Shown in pieces: positions 38,105 to 62,975 of a stretch of 64,000 nt of DNA. A program made the position numbers and the translations under genes. The notes beneath the pieces were generated by a model. The model ran no database searches, was not told the origin of the DNA, and worked only from the letters and a program-made list of their open reading frames with translations. Each line of letters opens with the position of its first letter. Position 1 is the stretch's first letter. Source of the stretch: Truepera sp. bin119 (lineage in GTDB: Bacteria; Deinococcota; Deinococci; Deinococcales; Trueperaceae); assembly GCA_002239005.1 (NCBI GenBank), contig MPNL01000004.1, positions 62,001 to 126,000 of the forward strand, written 5' to 3'.

Positions 38105-38326
38105 TCGACCCTCCCCGAATCAGCATACCGTCAGCACCTCAGGCCATCAGGCTTGCAACGGTTCCGGATCTCAACAATCGTAATGCAACCTGTTCCCCCG
38201 GCCAGCCCCAGCAAGCAGGTCTGCGGACCCGCCCCCACAGCTTCAGGGCAGCGGACTACCAGCCCGCTCCCGCCCGGACCGAGAGCGGCTGGCCCACACC
38301 CGCGAGTCTCCATCTCAGGGACCCGG

Positions 38327-38338: not shown

Positions 38339-39013
38339 ATGGAGCCCCGAACCACCGCCGACGGCAGCCTGACGCTGTATAGCCCCGCCTACGGCCAGAC
38401 CCTCCACTCCCACCACGGGGCGGTGACGGAGTCCCGTCACGTCTTCCTGCGGGGGAGCGGGGTCGCCTCGCGACTCGGTCTGGGCAGACCGACCTCGGTC
38501 CTCGAAATCGGTTTCGGGACCGGCCTCAACTTCCTCCTCAGCGCCGACGCTGCGCTGGCGACCGGCACCCCCCTCCGCTACGTCGCACTCGACCGATCCC
38601 TCCCGGACAGTGACCTCTTAGCCACGCTCGGATACGGTCGTCACCTCTCCAATAGTCAGCTCTGGACGCGGTTCCTGACCTTCCGCGGGTCCCTGGAGGC
38701 CAATCCCACCTTCCATTACGGGCCAGCGAGGCTCAGCCTGCAGCTGAGGGACGCCACCGGTGCCCCCCTCGAAGCGGAGGATTTCGACGCCATCTATCTC
38801 GACGCCTTCAGTCCCGATGTCAACCCTGAACTCTGGTCCGAAGCCTTCCTGTCGGGCCTGGCGACAGCCCTGTCCGCGGGCGGAATACTGGTCAGCTACT
38901 CGGTCAAGGGAGAGGTCCGGAGGCGGCTTGCGCGGCTCGGTCTCGAGGTCGCGAGACACCCGGGGCCGCCGGCCGGTAAGCGGGAGATGTTGTGGGCCAG
39001 GAAGAGGACCTAA
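38339..39013 (+). CDS. mnmD: tRNA (mnm5s2U34) methyltransferase MnmD
   Basis: The 224-aa protein matches the methyltransferase half of MnmC: LYSPAYGQTLHSHHGAVTESRHVFL at the start, the SAM site VLEIGFGTGLNFLL, and FDAIYLDAFSPDVNPELWSEAFL, all hallmarks. It methylates 5-aminomethyl-2-thiouridine at the wobble base of tRNA. The FAD half of MnmC is apparently encoded at 41806. Its TAA stop (39011-39013) lies inside the 8-bp duplication made by the transposon at 39019. Confidence 0.85.
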   Translation: MEPRTTADGSLTLYSPAYGQTLHSHHGAVTESRHVFLRGSGVASRLGLGRPTSVLEIGFGTGLNFLLSADAALATGTPLRYVALDRSLPDSDLLATLGYGRHLSNSQLWTRFLTFRGSLEANPTFHYGPARLSLQLRDATGAPLEAEDFDAIYLDAFSPDVNPELWSEAFLSGLATALSAGGILVSYSVKGEVRRRLARLGLEVARHPGPPAGKREMLWARKRT

Positions 39014-39018
39014 TGCAA
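39011..39018. repeat. Target-site duplication TAATGCAA, left copy
   Basis: This 8-bp sequence is repeated exactly at 40844-40851 on the other side of the transposon. It includes the mnmD stop codon. Confidence 0.9.
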
Positions 39019-39022
39019 GGGG

Positions 39023-39685
39023 TTATATACCAAAGTCACATTTGGGCTCGCCGCGGCCTATCCCCCCAACGTCATACTCGAAGGTCTCTATCTTCGGGTC
39101 GAGCACCTCGCCAAGGTTATTAAGCTCTCTCCATGTTTCCACCCGGCATAGTGCAAACGCTTGAATCTGGATCTTTGGATTAACTTGCCTCAGTCTTGCG
39201 GCACAACCAAATAGAGTGGAACCATTCGTTATGAAGTCGTCAATCAGCATCACTTTTGCCGGGGGGAATAGGTCCGTGATAACGCCTAATGAATCTCTGT
39301 GCCTTGTCGGTGTTGGGCGCTGTGAAGCAGAGCGCACACCTGTCGACCGGGGAACAGGCTCTCTTCTCTCAAGCAGGGGAACCACGGATTCTCCAATGCC
39401 GTTGCTCCTCATTGCCTCGGCAATTCTCTCGGGCACCCATAAGCTACCTGGTAGGTGACGTGAATGCTTCGGTACGGGAACTAAGGCACCAGCGTTGCCT
39501 AGAAGCTTTCCCAAGGGGTCCGGCAAGGGATCTGTAAGAACCCCGACAATGGTTTCTATGAACTCTCCTTCAGCTTGTTTCACCCCAGACCATAGGGCGC
39601 TCCGTACCTTTTTCGAGAATTCTTGCTTAGTCCTCGACGGGTAGATGAGCAGCGAGCCGATGCTAAGCTTTGAAGGGAAGCTCAC
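39023..39685 (-). CDS. ComF-like phosphoribosyltransferase, transposon cargo
   Basis: The 220-aa protein has the type I phosphoribosyltransferase PRPP loop VMLIDDFITNGST (residues 145-157) and an upstream VPVPKHSRHLPG segment like the ComF and amidophosphoribosyltransferase group. It lacks the zinc finger of ComF. It overlaps the DprA-like gene by 23 bases and starts at GTG 39685. The pair could make or process a nucleotide-derived molecule or act on DNA; function unknown. Confidence 0.7.
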   Translation of the reverse strand: MSFPSKLSIGSLLIYPSRTKQEFSKKVRSALWSGVKQAEGEFIETIVGVLTDPLPDPLGKLLGNAGALVPVPKHSRHLPGSLWVPERIAEAMRSNGIGESVVPLLERREPVPRSTGVRSASQRPTPTRHRDSLGVITDLFPPAKVMLIDDFITNGSTLFGCAARLRQVNPKIQIQAFALCRVETWRELNNLGEVLDPKIETFEYDVGGIGRGEPKCDFGI

Positions 39686-40373
39686 TGAGATCTTGCCAAT
39701 ATTCCCTGGGGTCCATACCTACCGGGAAGAGTTCGTCGAGCCAATCAACGATATCAGGGGGTTGGAAGGCTATCGCTCCGTATTCTTGCATCTCACGGGG
39801 CCAAGAGAATTCCTCTTCGATAAGGCACTTGGGGAGGAAGAGGTGACGACCGAGCCTAATCGCTTCCCAACCCTGATGTCGTGTGCCGCTCTCAGCCCCC
39901 GCCTCAATAATAATTGAACCTTCAGAGAGCAAGGCCATCGTGCGGTTGCGCATAGGGAAGTTTCTGGATTTCGGTGGGGTTCCTTCAGGAAATTGGGTTA
40001 CGACGAGGTGTTTGTCCATGAGACGCTTCTGAAGGCCGGCATTCTCTTTGGGGTAGCTAATATCCAGGCCAGTCCCGATTACTGCAATTGTCTTCCCCCC
40101 GGCAGAGATGGCGGCCAGATGAGCAGCTGTGTCGATGCCTTTTGCCAATCCGCTAACTACAACTCCACCGTGTTTAACTATTGCCCGGGCAATGGTCCTT
40201 GCCACCTTTAAGCCTTCCGGGGAAGGGCTTCTGGAGCCGATTACGCTGATTCTGGGGCGCAATCTGAGAAGGTTGGAATCGCCAGCCACAAACAGTTGCT
40301 CTGGAGCGTGCTTCCGTTCTATCTCATTGAGTTCGCCTATGAAGCTCTCGGTTGGCTGAGTTGATGCGATCAT
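39663..40373 (-). CDS. DprA/Smf-like Rossmann-fold protein, transposon cargo
   Basis: The 236-aa protein has the DprA core: ISVIGSRSPSPEGLKVA (residues 42-58), VSGLAKGIDTAAHLAAISAGGKTIAVIGTGLD, YPKENAGLQKRL and FPMRNRTMALLSEGSIIIEAG. It lacks the N-terminal SAM and C-terminal winged-helix domains of full DprA (about 360 aa), so it is nearer to the SLOG/TIGR00732 minimal forms. DprA loads RecA on single-stranded DNA; SLOG relatives occur in nucleotide-signal defence systems. AGGGAG precedes the ATG. Codon use is less GC-rich than in the flanking genes. Confidence 0.8.
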   Translation of the reverse strand: MIASTQPTESFIGELNEIERKHAPEQLFVAGDSNLLRLRPRISVIGSRSPSPEGLKVARTIARAIVKHGGVVVSGLAKGIDTAAHLAAISAGGKTIAVIGTGLDISYPKENAGLQKRLMDKHLVVTQFPEGTPPKSRNFPMRNRTMALLSEGSIIIEAGAESGTRHQGWEAIRLGRHLFLPKCLIEEEFSWPREMQEYGAIAFQPPDIVDWLDELFPVGMDPREYWQDLSELPFKA

Positions 40374-40402
40374 CTTAGCTCCCTACCGTATACCTATCCC
40401 AC

Positions 40403-40717
40403 TCAGGGTCGGCGCTTAACCACCGTGACATCCCGCACCACAGCTTTGGCTATGGCTAATTCCTCGGGTGTGGTAGGGATAGACATGTCAGCCGCTAGCT
40501 CAGCCTTGCGCGGCTGGTAGATGGTTCCGGTTTTAAGAGAGAAGAACCGCCTATCGGGGCAGTCACGGCAACGGTGGGTCATAGTGCGATGCTTGGCACC
40601 CGATTGGACGTTGAAGGAACCGCAGTGGGGGCAGACAGGGCCGCTGGGCCAGCGCTGCTCAGCAAACCACTTCTCAGCCACTTCGTCACTGGAAAACAGG
40701 TCCATGAGTTCGACCAT
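40403..40717 (-). pseudogene. IS1595-type transposase N-terminal fragment
   Basis: From ATG 40717 the frame reads MVELMDLFSSDEVAEKWF, then RWPSGPVCPHCGSFNVQSG, CRDCPDRRFFSLKTGTI: the zinc-ribbon domain of ISXO2/IS1595 transposases. After TGTIYQ it runs into unrelated sequence and stops at 104 aa with no DDE domain. It could still bind transposon ends. It is first in the cargo transcript, downstream of the promoter at 40785. Confidence 0.75.
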
Positions 40718-40784
40718 ATACCCTTGCGGTAGTGTTTTCCGGGTGCGCTGTGGGCCATTGTCTACCTCCCCAATATGACTCTGC

Positions 40785-40813
40785 TGTAACACGGGGGTGG
40801 CGAATGGTGTCAA
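40785..40813 (-). promoter_or_regulatory. Promoter inside the transposon (TTGACA-17-GTTACA)
   Basis: -35 TTGACA (complement 40808-40813), 17 bases, -10 GTTACA (40785-40790). It lies just inside the right terminal repeat and points at the transposase fragment and the DprA-PRTase genes. Confidence 0.65.
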
Positions 40814-40842
40814 GTGTTTTGTGACTTTGGTACATAAATCCC

Positions 40843-41313
40843 CTAATGCAAACACTTCAGGTGGCAACCGCTCCCGCTAGCCCCTCCCGGCTCAAAGCGG
40901 TAGCCAAGGCTCCTGCCCAACGCCTCCGTCGAGGCGCACCCTGAAGGGGCGGGGAGGGACAGGAGCAGGCAGCGGAGCCCGCTAGCCCGAGAGCACTCCT
41001 CGAGGGTCGTAACCAGGGTGCGGGCGTAGCCCCGGCGGCGGTGGGCCGGGTGGACGCAGATCCGCACGATCTCTGCAACCGAATCCGGCAAGGGTCGGGC
41101 GATGGCGAGCGCCACCACCGGACCCCAGGCCACGGGCGCCGCGGCGCGGACGAGGTGGAGGCGGAGTTGGCCGACCCAAGCCCCCCCCGCCGGGATCTCT
41201 TCCGACTCTCCGGGTAAGAGCGGGGGATCACAGCCCACAACCCGCTGCAGCAGCTTGACCTCGAAGCGATCCTCGTTCCGGTAGCGACGCACCTCGAGGC
41301 TCTGCGGCGGCAC
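40843..41313 (-). CDS. GNAT-family N-acetyltransferase
   Basis: The 156-aa protein has the acetyl-CoA motif VRICVHPAHRRRGYARTLVTTLEE, typical of GNAT motif A, and LLLSLPAPSG ... LGRSLGYRFEPGG toward the end. The substrate is unknown. GTG 41313 starts 5 bases after the stop of the membrane-protein gene, so the long upstream open frame is a shadow. Its TAG stop straddles the transposon boundary and would be the same without the insertion. Confidence 0.75.
   Translation of the reverse strand: MPPQSLEVRRYRNEDRFEVKLLQRVVGCDPPLLPGESEEIPAGGAWVGQLRLHLVRAAAPVAWGPVVALAIARPLPDSVAEIVRICVHPAHRRRGYARTLVTTLEECSRASGLRCLLLSLPAPSGCASTEALGRSLGYRFEPGGASGSGCHLKCLH
40844..40851. repeat. Target-site duplication TAATGCAA, right copy
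   Basis: Exact copy of 39011-39018, immediately after the right end of the transposon and within the last codons of the GNAT gene. Confidence 0.9.
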
Positions 41314-59696: not shown

Positions 59697-59906
59697 TCAA
59701 AGCCTTACATAACGGTACACGTCTCTGATGTGAGCACTAAAGTATGTCCCATGTGAGCCTGCATGCATCAAAGCCTGCCATTCATACTCAGGAACATCGA
59801 AGTATTGATACACTGCGCCGTTGTGGAATTCGATCTCAAGAGTCGAAGAGTTCGGTTCGTAACCTACGGACGTCAGATGAGATGAGCTTACTGGGGTTCT
59901 TCGCAT
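59697..59906 (-). CDS. KTSC-domain protein
   Basis: The 69-aa protein matches the KTSC domain: SSHLTSVGYEPNSSTLEIEF, NGAVYQYFDVPEYEW, and SHGTYFSAHIRDVYRYVRL. KTSC is a small domain named for the C-terminus of lysyl-tRNA synthetase; its role is unknown, perhaps nucleic-acid binding. ATG 59906 (GGAG 8 bases upstream) is used rather than the longer frame. It overlaps the herA gene by 19 bases and precedes hsdS by 12, so it is part of the same operon. Confidence 0.8.
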   Translation of the reverse strand: MRRTPVSSSHLTSVGYEPNSSTLEIEFHNGAVYQYFDVPEYEWQALMHAGSHGTYFSAHIRDVYRYVRL

Positions 59907-61771
59907 GGTTTCACTCCAGAATCCTGTGTGCTTTTTGGATTTTCGCTGCGCCATTTTTCGAGCAGGAGATTATAGTTTTTTGATTGCCTCTGGGGACTCC
60001 AACCTCTGGCAGCGTCCGGGTCATATATCAAGGGGTCATCGCTATCGGGACGGCGATTCTTGGCTGGCGCGTCTACGATGGCGCGCAGCGGCAAGTGAAC
60101 GGCTTCTCCAATGACAATCGCTTCGCCTGTACGCAATGCTGGCAGCATACTCAAAAGTCCCTCGAGGTTATCGCTTACTACCCCTGCAACGTGAGATCGA
60201 TCAGTGTCATTCGCAAGACGCATAGCAAAGATGGTTCCGCACTGTGACAGGATTGTCGAGTCGATCTCTGAAGGCCGCTGGCTCACAATCATTGCCCCCA
60301 ACCCATATTTGCGGCCTTCCCTTACAACACGTCGGGCTGCAGTTGCCGCTGGCCCGATATTTCCAACTCCGAGATAAGAGTGGGCTTCTTCAAGCACTAT
60401 AAGTAATGGCCTGCGTCTTCCACCTTCAGGAAGGTGGCGGCCCCAAAACAGTGCATCGAATAACAACCTGAGAAGCACTCCAATCAGATCCATCAGGATA
60501 AGCTCTGGAACCCCGGACAGATCGAGTATGGTGATTGGCTTGTTCCCACCCAACCACGACTCCAAGAGCGCGTCTAAGTCTTTTGTAGGTTGAGCGTTGA
60601 GGTCTTGGTGACTCGGCTCTGGACACCACGGACCCGGACGAAACAGAAAATCGTACCTCGTGTCTTTCAAACGAGACTCGACAGCAACCAGTTGCCTCCG
60701 AATGTTGAGAGAGCTCGCGCTCAAGTACACCCGATTAGAACCTCCTGCTGTAATCGGAAGGTATTCGGGTGGTTGCACAGTCATGATGTCGCCGATCAGC
60801 TTCTCGCCTTCTGCATCGCAGGCGATGGCCTCCGTGTCTCTGGTTTGGTTTACGCCTTGTGCAGTGTGGTGTGACAACACATCACGGTATAATTCGTACC
60901 AAAAGCGATGAATGCTAAACGGTATTGGGGTGTCCACTGTCATGGTATCAGGAGTAACCCCGCTACGGCTTTTGGCCTGAAGGGAGGCCAGTTTCAACCG
61001 CTTAAGCTGATCGACAAGGGCAACACGGTCAGTATCGGAGACTCCTCCGAAAGGAGTAACTCTCAGTAGCTCATCGAAGCTCAAAGCCCAATATGGGACA
61101 AATAATGGCTCCTCGTCCCTGCTCGTATCCGCGTTGATGCGAAAGATAGTAGCTCTATCTTTCAAGGCAGTGTGATATTCACCATGGATATCTAGGACAA
61201 TAATGCGTGCGGATGGATACCGATCCTGATCCGAAAAGGATGCAAGGAGGTTGGCTACCGTCGTGGATTTGCCCGCACCTGTCGTACCCAAGACAGCACA
61301 ATGTCGAGTTACCAACCGATTAACATCAACCAGTGCCGGGATGGATTCCGCGCTCGCGACGCCCCCGATGCGGACATGGCCCGGCTCATCTGGCTTTCCA
61401 TAGATTTTTGTCAAGTCCTGTTCGGTGACCAAATGAGCTTCATCATTGATTGTCGGATACTGCGAGACACCACGCTGAAAAGGTCCTGAGCGTTGACCTT
61501 CACCTATAAGTTGCACTTTGAGCCACCGGTACCCATACGGTTCAGTGTGAGCCAGCGTCTCAGGGACCGCTCCAGCCCCAACTTGAGATACGATCCCAAA
61601 CAGATCAACGAAGCCGATAGGGATGCGGATGAAGCTCCCAATCTGCCCAATACGATAGCCATGACCGTCGATGAAAACCAAGCCCGAAATCGTGTCCTTG
61701 TCGAGTGCAACGCTGACCGTTGCACCCTGGACATCTTGAACGGTACCTAAATAGGTGGAATTATAATGCAT
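59888..61771 (-). CDS. herA: HerA-type ATPase of a SIR2-HerA defence pair
   Basis: The 627-aa protein has an N-terminal HAS-barrel (GTVQDVQGATVSVAL), Walker A GTTGAGKST (residues 162-170), IIVLDIHGEYH, Walker B LLIVLEEAHSYLG (456-468) and SQRPSEIDSTILSQCGT (sensor 2 region). It overlaps the SIR2 gene by 11 bases. In known SIR2-HerA systems the two proteins form one large complex that degrades NAD+ or DNA upon phage infection. Base composition is lower in GC than the host genes. Confidence 0.85.
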   Translation of the reverse strand: MHYNSTYLGTVQDVQGATVSVALDKDTISGLVFIDGHGYRIGQIGSFIRIPIGFVDLFGIVSQVGAGAVPETLAHTEPYGYRWLKVQLIGEGQRSGPFQRGVSQYPTINDEAHLVTEQDLTKIYGKPDEPGHVRIGGVASAESIPALVDVNRLVTRHCAVLGTTGAGKSTTVANLLASFSDQDRYPSARIIVLDIHGEYHTALKDRATIFRINADTSRDEEPLFVPYWALSFDELLRVTPFGGVSDTDRVALVDQLKRLKLASLQAKSRSGVTPDTMTVDTPIPFSIHRFWYELYRDVLSHHTAQGVNQTRDTEAIACDAEGEKLIGDIMTVQPPEYLPITAGGSNRVYLSASSLNIRRQLVAVESRLKDTRYDFLFRPGPWCPEPSHQDLNAQPTKDLDALLESWLGGNKPITILDLSGVPELILMDLIGVLLRLLFDALFWGRHLPEGGRRRPLLIVLEEAHSYLGVGNIGPAATAARRVVREGRKYGLGAMIVSQRPSEIDSTILSQCGTIFAMRLANDTDRSHVAGVVSDNLEGLLSMLPALRTGEAIVIGEAVHLPLRAIVDAPAKNRRPDSDDPLIYDPDAARGWSPQRQSKNYNLLLEKWRSENPKSTQDSGVKPCEEPQ

Positions 61772-62975
61772 CCCTGTAGTTCTCTACGGATATTGATCGA
61801 ACGTTTCCCACGATCTCTTGCAGGAATTTCCCGAAGACTGCAAAGTCCCCAAGCTTGAATTCAGCCTTGTACTTGGTTTGACCATCGGTAGAAGCAGTTT
61901 GCTCCCAAGTCACTGCGCTACCAGTATCGGCTGGAAGTGATTCAGAGTCCCTTTCCAACCACTCTACTCGCCGCCCACCAATAATCCCACCGTTACGCGC
62001 AAAAACGTTGAGATTAGGCTGATTCGTAGCAAGGTTAACAGCATTATCATATCCTCCGAGCTGGCCAAACATCAGGGCAAAAGCTACGGCGGTCTGTGTA
62101 TGCTGTAGTCCTTGTATGATCGTCTCGTTTATATGATCGTCGCGAAAAGAGTAGCCACAAAGGATAAGTACAGCAGTAGGCGACTTCAAGAATGAGCGAA
62201 ACCTATCAACCATAGCCAAGTAGGGCATCCGTCTACTCTCTTGATATTTGAGATGTGAAGGATGGATGACTCGTCTTGGTCCGTCTTCTCTCACGGTTCC
62301 CCGGAAAACCTCCCGGCTCTCATTCTGATACCAGTTTATTGACCCGTGGAGCTTCCACAGACGTGTCCAAGGTGGTAAGTCTCCTTCCAGCAGGAGTGGG
62401 TCAAAAAGGGGCCTTAGCACACCTGAGAAACCGTCAAAGTACGGGACACGAGACTTCTCAAGTGCTTGCTCTAACAGCAGATCATAGTTGGTTGTGAAAA
62501 TTTCAATGGGAAACTTGCGCTGTGTCGCGTGCGCCCATAACGAAACACTGTGATATGGCGTCTGGTCGCTAGGAAGCTTCTTGTTGACGGTTCGGTGGAT
62601 CAGATTACAGACGGCGCTATCCAGCGTTTGTAGTTGCTGAGCAGAAAGGCCACGTACCTTATCGTTTCCCACAACTGCCTCAAGTGCTCGAACGTGAGAG
62701 AGAAAATCTTCCACAGTTGGATTGCAGTTACCATCCTTCTTTAGGTTGCCGTCAACTTTTCCCCAAAGGTTTCTGTGTTCAGCACACTGTTGCAGTTGTT
62801 CACGAACCAACTTGCTAATCCCAGCAATGTCGGGAATAAGGGGACACCGATTTTCATCTTGAATAGACATAGGGCAACCTGCCCCTAGAAAGAGACCGAT
62901 TGGTCTCTTGTCCACAGAAAGACACTGCTGAAGGTGTGAGATTCGAGGTAACAGATCCTCTCGGGTATAGTTCAT
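61761..62975 (-). CDS. SIR2-family protein (NADase effector of SIR2-HerA)
   Basis: The 404-aa protein has SIR2 signatures: GLFLGAGCPMS (residues 27-37), FTTNYDLLLEQAL (160-172), WKLHGSINW (207-215; H210 as catalytic base) and CGYSFRDDHIN (273-283). Defence SIR2 proteins hydrolyse NAD+ to stop phage growth. Its ATG overlaps the hsdM stop (ATGA, 62972-62975), so it is made from the same message as the type I methylase. It overlaps the HerA gene downstream. Confidence 0.85.
   Translation of the reverse strand: MNYTREDLLPRISHLQQCLSVDKRPIGLFLGAGCPMSIQDENRCPLIPDIAGISKLVREQLQQCAEHRNLWGKVDGNLKKDGNCNPTVEDFLSHVRALEAVVGNDKVRGLSAQQLQTLDSAVCNLIHRTVNKKLPSDQTPYHSVSLWAHATQRKFPIEIFTTNYDLLLEQALEKSRVPYFDGFSGVLRPLFDPLLLEGDLPPWTRLWKLHGSINWYQNESREVFRGTVREDGPRRVIHPSHLKYQESRRMPYLAMVDRFRSFLKSPTAVLILCGYSFRDDHINETIIQGLQHTQTAVAFALMFGQLGGYDNAVNLATNQPNLNVFARNGGIIGGRRVEWLERDSESLPADTGSAVTWEQTASTDGQTKYKAEFKLGDFAVFGKFLQEIVGNVRSISVENYRDAL

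Follow-up and report, generated by a model that had tools for sequence, protein, structure and literature searches.

Anti-phage systems are known to travel on prophages, satellites, plasmids and integrative elements. One of these systems, ShosTA, associates a phosphoribosyltransferase (PRTase) toxin, ShosT, with a DprA-like antitoxin, ShosA, and is presented as a genuine toxin-antitoxin pair in PMC9122126 and PMC12593503. Protection against T7 and lambda is reported for a DprA-PRTase pair from a P2-like phage (PMC9122126). PMC12593503, which cites Pu et al. 2025, describes ShosT as a PRTase that is also a pyrophosphatase; it upsets purine metabolism, and the consequences are duplications in the DNA, filamentation and death. 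In the same account, ShosA attaches to DNA and probably brings in recombination factors, and T7 Gp0.7 is the trigger of the system.

Insertion sequences of the IS1595 family produce an 8-bp target duplication and are bordered by inverted ends of about 25 bp (PMC8101967, PMC5704250). The zinc ribbon of this family, its passenger-bearing members MTnSag1 and tISCpe8, and a category of cassettes have also been described (PMC8101967, PMC5704250, PMC3129680). Examples of such passenger elements (tIS) are tISCpe8 and MTnSag1, the latter carrying lincomycin resistance. The mobile insertion cassette MIC231 of Bacillus cereus carries passengers between IS ends without a working transposase and is presumed to move in trans.

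A locus of Truepera sp. bin119 appears to bring such a cargo and such a carrier together. In the window, i.e., the whole stretch of 64,000 nucleotides that was analysed, an element of 1825 bp (39019-40843) lies between two exact 8-bp copies of TAATGCAA (Table 1). We read it, with a probability of roughly 0.85, as a non-autonomous IS1595-family transposon, or mobile insertion cassette, whose sole intact cargo is a short-form ShosTA pair, which was moved in trans and which protects by abortive infection. As in the ShosTA systems of E. coli APEC O1 (8zva/8zvc) and of the P2 phage, a DprA-like antitoxin adjoins a PRTase toxin, with the PRPP loop and the DprA core kept. Unlike the ShosA of these known systems (303-331 aa), the ShosA of the window is short and devoid of the N-terminal extension seen in the E. 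coli antitoxin, and whereas the known carriers of ShosTA are prophages, satellites, plasmids and defence islands, this pair is borne by an IS1595-derived cassette. The latter shares with the IS1595 passenger elements the inverted ends, the 8-bp duplication, the transposase family and the presence of passengers, but, in contrast to tISCpe8 and MTnSag1, its transposase is destroyed and its cargo is an anti-phage toxin-antitoxin pair instead of drug resistance. It resembles MIC231 in having passengers between IS ends and no working transposase, and differs from it by its IS family and its cargo.

Table 1. Features of the element in the window and of related elements in the same genome.
Feature	Position	Strand	Remarks	Basis
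Left target duplication copy TAATGCAA	39011..39018	.	Includes the mnmC2 TAA stop	Sequence, simulated-control scan, translation of flanking genes and of the empty site
Left terminal inverted repeat, 22 bp	39019..39040	+	Minus strand encodes the last five residues of shosT (CDFGI) and TAA	
shosT-like gene, 220 aa	39023-39685	-	GTG start; predicted PRTase toxin	PADLOC ShosT 9e-18, alignment, AlphaFold
shosA-like gene, 236 aa	39663-40373	-	Predicted DprA-type SLOG/Rossmann antitoxin	Pfam, PADLOC, alignment, AlphaFold
C-terminal ~36 residues of another passenger protein (QPRKAELAADMSIPTTPEELA...)	40403..40513	-	In-frame fusion with what is left of the transposase; apparent scar of a deletion	
IS1595-family transposase vestige	40514..40758	-		PF12760, DNA alignment, tblastn against the C51 transposase
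Relic of the parental transposase promoter	40808..40813	-	-35 TTGACA kept, -10 decayed	Alignment with the C51 right end, consensus scans
Right terminal inverted repeat, 24 bp	40820..40843	-		
Right target duplication copy TAATGCAA	40844..40851	.	GNAT gene TAG stop completed here	
C51 element	C51:9105-12682 (L035 106-3683)		Duplication CTAGTATA; transposase, methyltransferase with Mrr-like tail	
C3 element, 3458 bp	L037 386-3843		Duplication CTCTTTTA; passenger gene(s)	
C3 element, 3297 bp	L037 8617-11913		Duplication TTCGCGAA; methyltransferase-HNH	
C13 element, 13,911 bp	L153 2939-16849		Duplication TATCCAAA; 24/26 matching positions in the ends	

The interval given in the preliminary description (39011-40851) takes in both copies of the duplication, the element itself being 39019-40843; this description had announced a perfect target duplication and near-perfect inverted repeats starting with GGGG. 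Indeed, the terminal repeats (left GGGG--TTATATACCAAAGTCACA, right GGGGATTTATGTACCAAAGTCACA) differ by one mismatch and one 2-bp gap only, and they outscore all controls. Among the 8,118 pairs of identical octamers standing 0.3-4 kb apart over the whole window, the TAATGCAA pair has the best inverted ends, with 19/22 when the ends are truncated to 22 columns, whereas the maximum score reached in 20 first-order Markov copies of the window is 16. A chance origin of the ends and of the duplication is ruled out by this octamer-pair scan and by the simulated windows. A third TAATGCAA, located at 38181 and with no repeat end adjacent to it, is taken as chance. The GC content is 54% in the element and 64% and 68% in the 5-kb flanks. 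As the gene pair sits between matching ends with an exact duplication, it was most likely already inside when the unit inserted, in agreement with the earlier proposal of a cargo transposon moved as a unit. That this movement, which is undated, was recent is plausible.

The element inserted as a unit, with its 8-bp duplication, at the convergence of mnmC2 and a GNAT gene, precisely between their overlapping convergent stop codons, and each of the two genes keeps a correct stop. When the predicted empty site, with its single TAATGCAA (...GGAAGAGGACC-TAATGCAA-ACACTTCAGG...), is translated, both genes have ends identical to those of the occupied site; thus, the insertion harmed neither mnmC2 nor the GNAT gene. 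In five relatives of the same family (L067, L068, L071, L072 and L080), mnmC2 is directly followed by a DUF gene, without interruption and with 24-86 bp between the aligned ends, and in other relatives of the family mnmC2 adjoins mnmC1, also without insert. These insert-free relatives are distant (MnmC2 identity of about 45-57%), so that the exact pre-insertion junction cannot be read from them. A DprA-PRTase pair present at this locus without terminal repeats had been envisaged as a counter-example; the relatives examined have no such pair there, and no unoccupied junction already containing both TAATGCAA copies was seen either.

The two overlapping genes of the cargo had been correctly called as DprA-like and PRTase genes, and their overlap amounts to 23 bp. 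The DprA-like protein matches Pfam DNA_processg_A at 3e-52 and the PADLOC ShosA model at 1.9e-69, the latter match far exceeding the way in which the protein meets the equivalog DprA cut-offs. Its profile retrieves the PDB entries 9vzo and 8zva, and its AlphaFold model (pLDDT 91) resembles the solved structures of DprA (3uqz) and of E. coli ShosA (8zva, TM 0.76). In the PRTase, the PRPP loop LIDDFITNGSTL is intact, and the DD and G of its DDxxTxG loop are invariant in an alignment with 26 relatives. Its AlphaFold model (pLDDT 89) finds its best PDB matches in ComF (7p0h) and in ShosT with PRPP (8zvc), the fold match to this solved toxin being weak (TM 0.41 over 144 columns). Alignments indicate that both proteins keep the invariant residues of their respective families. 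Judged by these matches, the cargo is ShosTA, the known anti-phage toxin-antitoxin pair, in a short form. The earlier suggestion of a small mobile module for defence or nucleotide signalling was a good guess, but the pair is already described, and the matches to the PADLOC ShosA and ShosT models lead to reject it as an undescribed system.

By analogy with the studied homologues, phage infection would unleash ShosT, with corruption of the purine nucleotide pool and damage to DNA, and ShosA, as a DNA-binding DprA-like protein, would counteract the damage caused by ShosT. The pair would shield the cell population through abortive infection, and it may also prevent the loss of the element. This last function could even be the main one, ShosTA being chiefly an addiction module that ensures maintenance of the element, with anti-phage defence as a by-product. 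The toxin-antitoxin nature of the pair, as stated in PMC9122126 and PMC12593503, fits such a role, from which a small element incapable of self-movement would benefit. We nevertheless regard it as rather unlikely, since the homologous DprA-PRTase pair guards against T7 and lambda (PMC9122126) and since the cargo of the other IS1595 elements of the same genome, i.e., restriction enzymes and methyltransferases, follows a defence theme.

Indeed, at least four other elements of this genome, one on C51, two on C3 and one on C13, share ends of the GGGxATTATATA type and exact 8-bp duplications. The largest one, on C13, includes a transposase, a complete type III system (Mod and Res), Mrr, SLFN/AlbA_2 and the PADLOC candidate-defence PDC-S42. 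The cargo of these same-genome elements may point to a defence theme. The same type of end is found on C41 in a 204-bp inverted-repeat element (L146 2088-2291) whose flanking octamers do not exactly match, and which lies beside a fragment of the small passenger protein and a Septu (PtuA-PtuB) pair (L146 2774-4929). On C7 (L158 6609-10730), near-perfect inverted ends surround an IS1595 transposase without matching 8-bp duplication, and this element is possibly older or rearranged.

These related elements are possible sources of a transposase acting in trans. The genome has at least five full-length IS1595 transposase genes that belong to the same subgroup, and the transposase of a related full-length element would have moved the cassette. 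In this assembly, which is incomplete (96.8%, 91 contigs), the search found no full-length partner whose ends match exactly, only two unpaired ends, on C76 and C82, that resemble those of the cassette. The C82 end (L041 2466-2507) lies near a CRISPR-like array that starts at about 3650, with the repeat GTTTCAATCCTCACCCGCCCCTGAAGGCGGGTGCAAC. The cassette itself is in single copy in the genome, so that no second insertion confirms its mobility, and its right end and remnant have no DNA match in the 38 other genomes of the family. Across 111 genomes of the phylum, transposases of the related subgroup are nearly confined to this one. A tentative extension, for which we would not claim better than modest odds, is that IS1595-type transposons act here as a dedicated and size-flexible anti-phage vehicle, from the 1.8-kb ShosTA cassette to the 13.9-kb type III and Mrr element, the minimal cassettes being able to lose their transposase, to spread in trans and to use their end repeat as toxin stop.

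The carrier is visibly degraded. The transposase had been said to be cut down to its zinc ribbon, and the vestige does match PF12760 (zinc ribbon) at 2e-8, but a frameshift occurs close to its start, and some 36 residues at its C-terminus come from another passenger gene. Compared with the C51 transposase of the same genome, residues 1-14 (93%) are in one frame and residues 16-83 (54%, zinc ribbon) in another, and no significant match to this transposase appears past residue 83 by tblastn, the DDE catalytic domain being absent. The zinc ribbon is a frame-shifted and fused vestige, and not a retained functional part. Since the DDE domain is absent and the zinc ribbon frame-shifted, the element is a derivative of the IS1595 family and not a complete member. 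It displays the 8-bp duplication and the inverted ends of about 25 bp by which the family is recognized, and it surrounds passenger genes with IS ends without functional transposase, as mobile insertion cassettes do.

The fused tail, QPRKAELAADMSIPTTPEELA..., matches at 75% a C41 stretch located beside the 204-bp inverted-repeat element, and a query derived from C41 matches the window copy at 79% and the C51 copy at 68%. In C51, the corresponding protein (53 aa) has a gene of its own, located at the far end of the element. Most simply, the beginning of the transposase would have become joined to the tail of this second passenger gene through an internal deletion. The parental end, as represented in C51, has the promoter TTGACA-17-TAAAAT, with 11 of 12 positions conforming to consensus. 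The preliminary description gave the gene pair its own promoter inside the right end of the element, which is not supported in that form; the TTGACA of the parental transposase promoter is kept there, but no site reaches consensus, and the consensus scan found no consensus promoter within the element.

Such decay could mean that ShosTA was trapped by accident in a decayed IS1595 copy, without having been selected as mobile cargo, and that the element is now dead. A dead transposase, a single copy and a decayed promoter are in favor of this scenario, which we nonetheless find improbable. The position of the pair between matching ends with an exact duplication places it most likely inside at the time of insertion, both genes are intact at invariant positions, and the left repeat abuts shosT and gives it its stop. 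Most ShosT relatives terminate in '..R-x-P' (e.g., RREP), whereas the window ShosT has RGEP followed by KCDFGI and a stop, CDFGI and TAA being encoded by the left inverted repeat on the minus strand. The repeat thus starts one codon past the usual ShosT end. We read this abutment as the sign of a minimal cassette, and the way it formed is an inference. As for a service of the DprA-like gene in DNA uptake or recombination, suggested by the failure to find a second DprA gene in the genome (its only DprA-family match is the transposon-borne one, while 43 of 46 good-quality genomes have a match in the same search), it is highly improbable, as the protein fits ShosA far better than the equivalog DprA cut-offs, most proteins of its subfamily have ShosT as a partner, and the absence of an ordinary DprA gene may be a gap of the incomplete assembly.

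Apart from this locus, the scan of 84,980 genomes returned 44 ShosA relatives, about 30 of which have a recognisable ShosT immediately downstream, the A-T order being conserved. The phyla in which short-form ShosTA loci occur include Planctomycetota, Bacteroidota, Acidobacteriota and Pseudomonadota. ShosT also has matches in eight plasmid records, most of them with DprA annotated alongside, and nine viral loci have ShosA, most of them also with ShosT. None of the 44 genome, 9 viral and 2 plasmid loci examined has the pair inside an IS1595-type element. Around the 44 relatives, the three transposase queries used revealed no IS1595 transposase, and the search for similar terminal ends gave scores no better than the chance level. 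In viral contigs, the exact end sequence gave only two 18-mer matches, which lack the GGGG start and are taken as chance. The novelty is the combination, i.e., ShosTA within an IS1595-type element, the cargo and the type of carrier being each already described.

Few vehicles of a complete defence system would be smaller than an insertion-sequence cassette of 1.8 kb, and such a carrier would help account for the scatter of such pairs into arbitrary chromosomal sites. With this cassette, the 3.5-kb methyltransferase elements and the 13.9-kb restriction element, the genome offers a natural series suited to testing the preference of IS1595 for defence genes. Another anti-phage system, a SIR2-HerA pair (PADLOC HerA 4e-152, SIR2 3e-127), is located at 59888-62975, in the part of the window with the lowest GC content.
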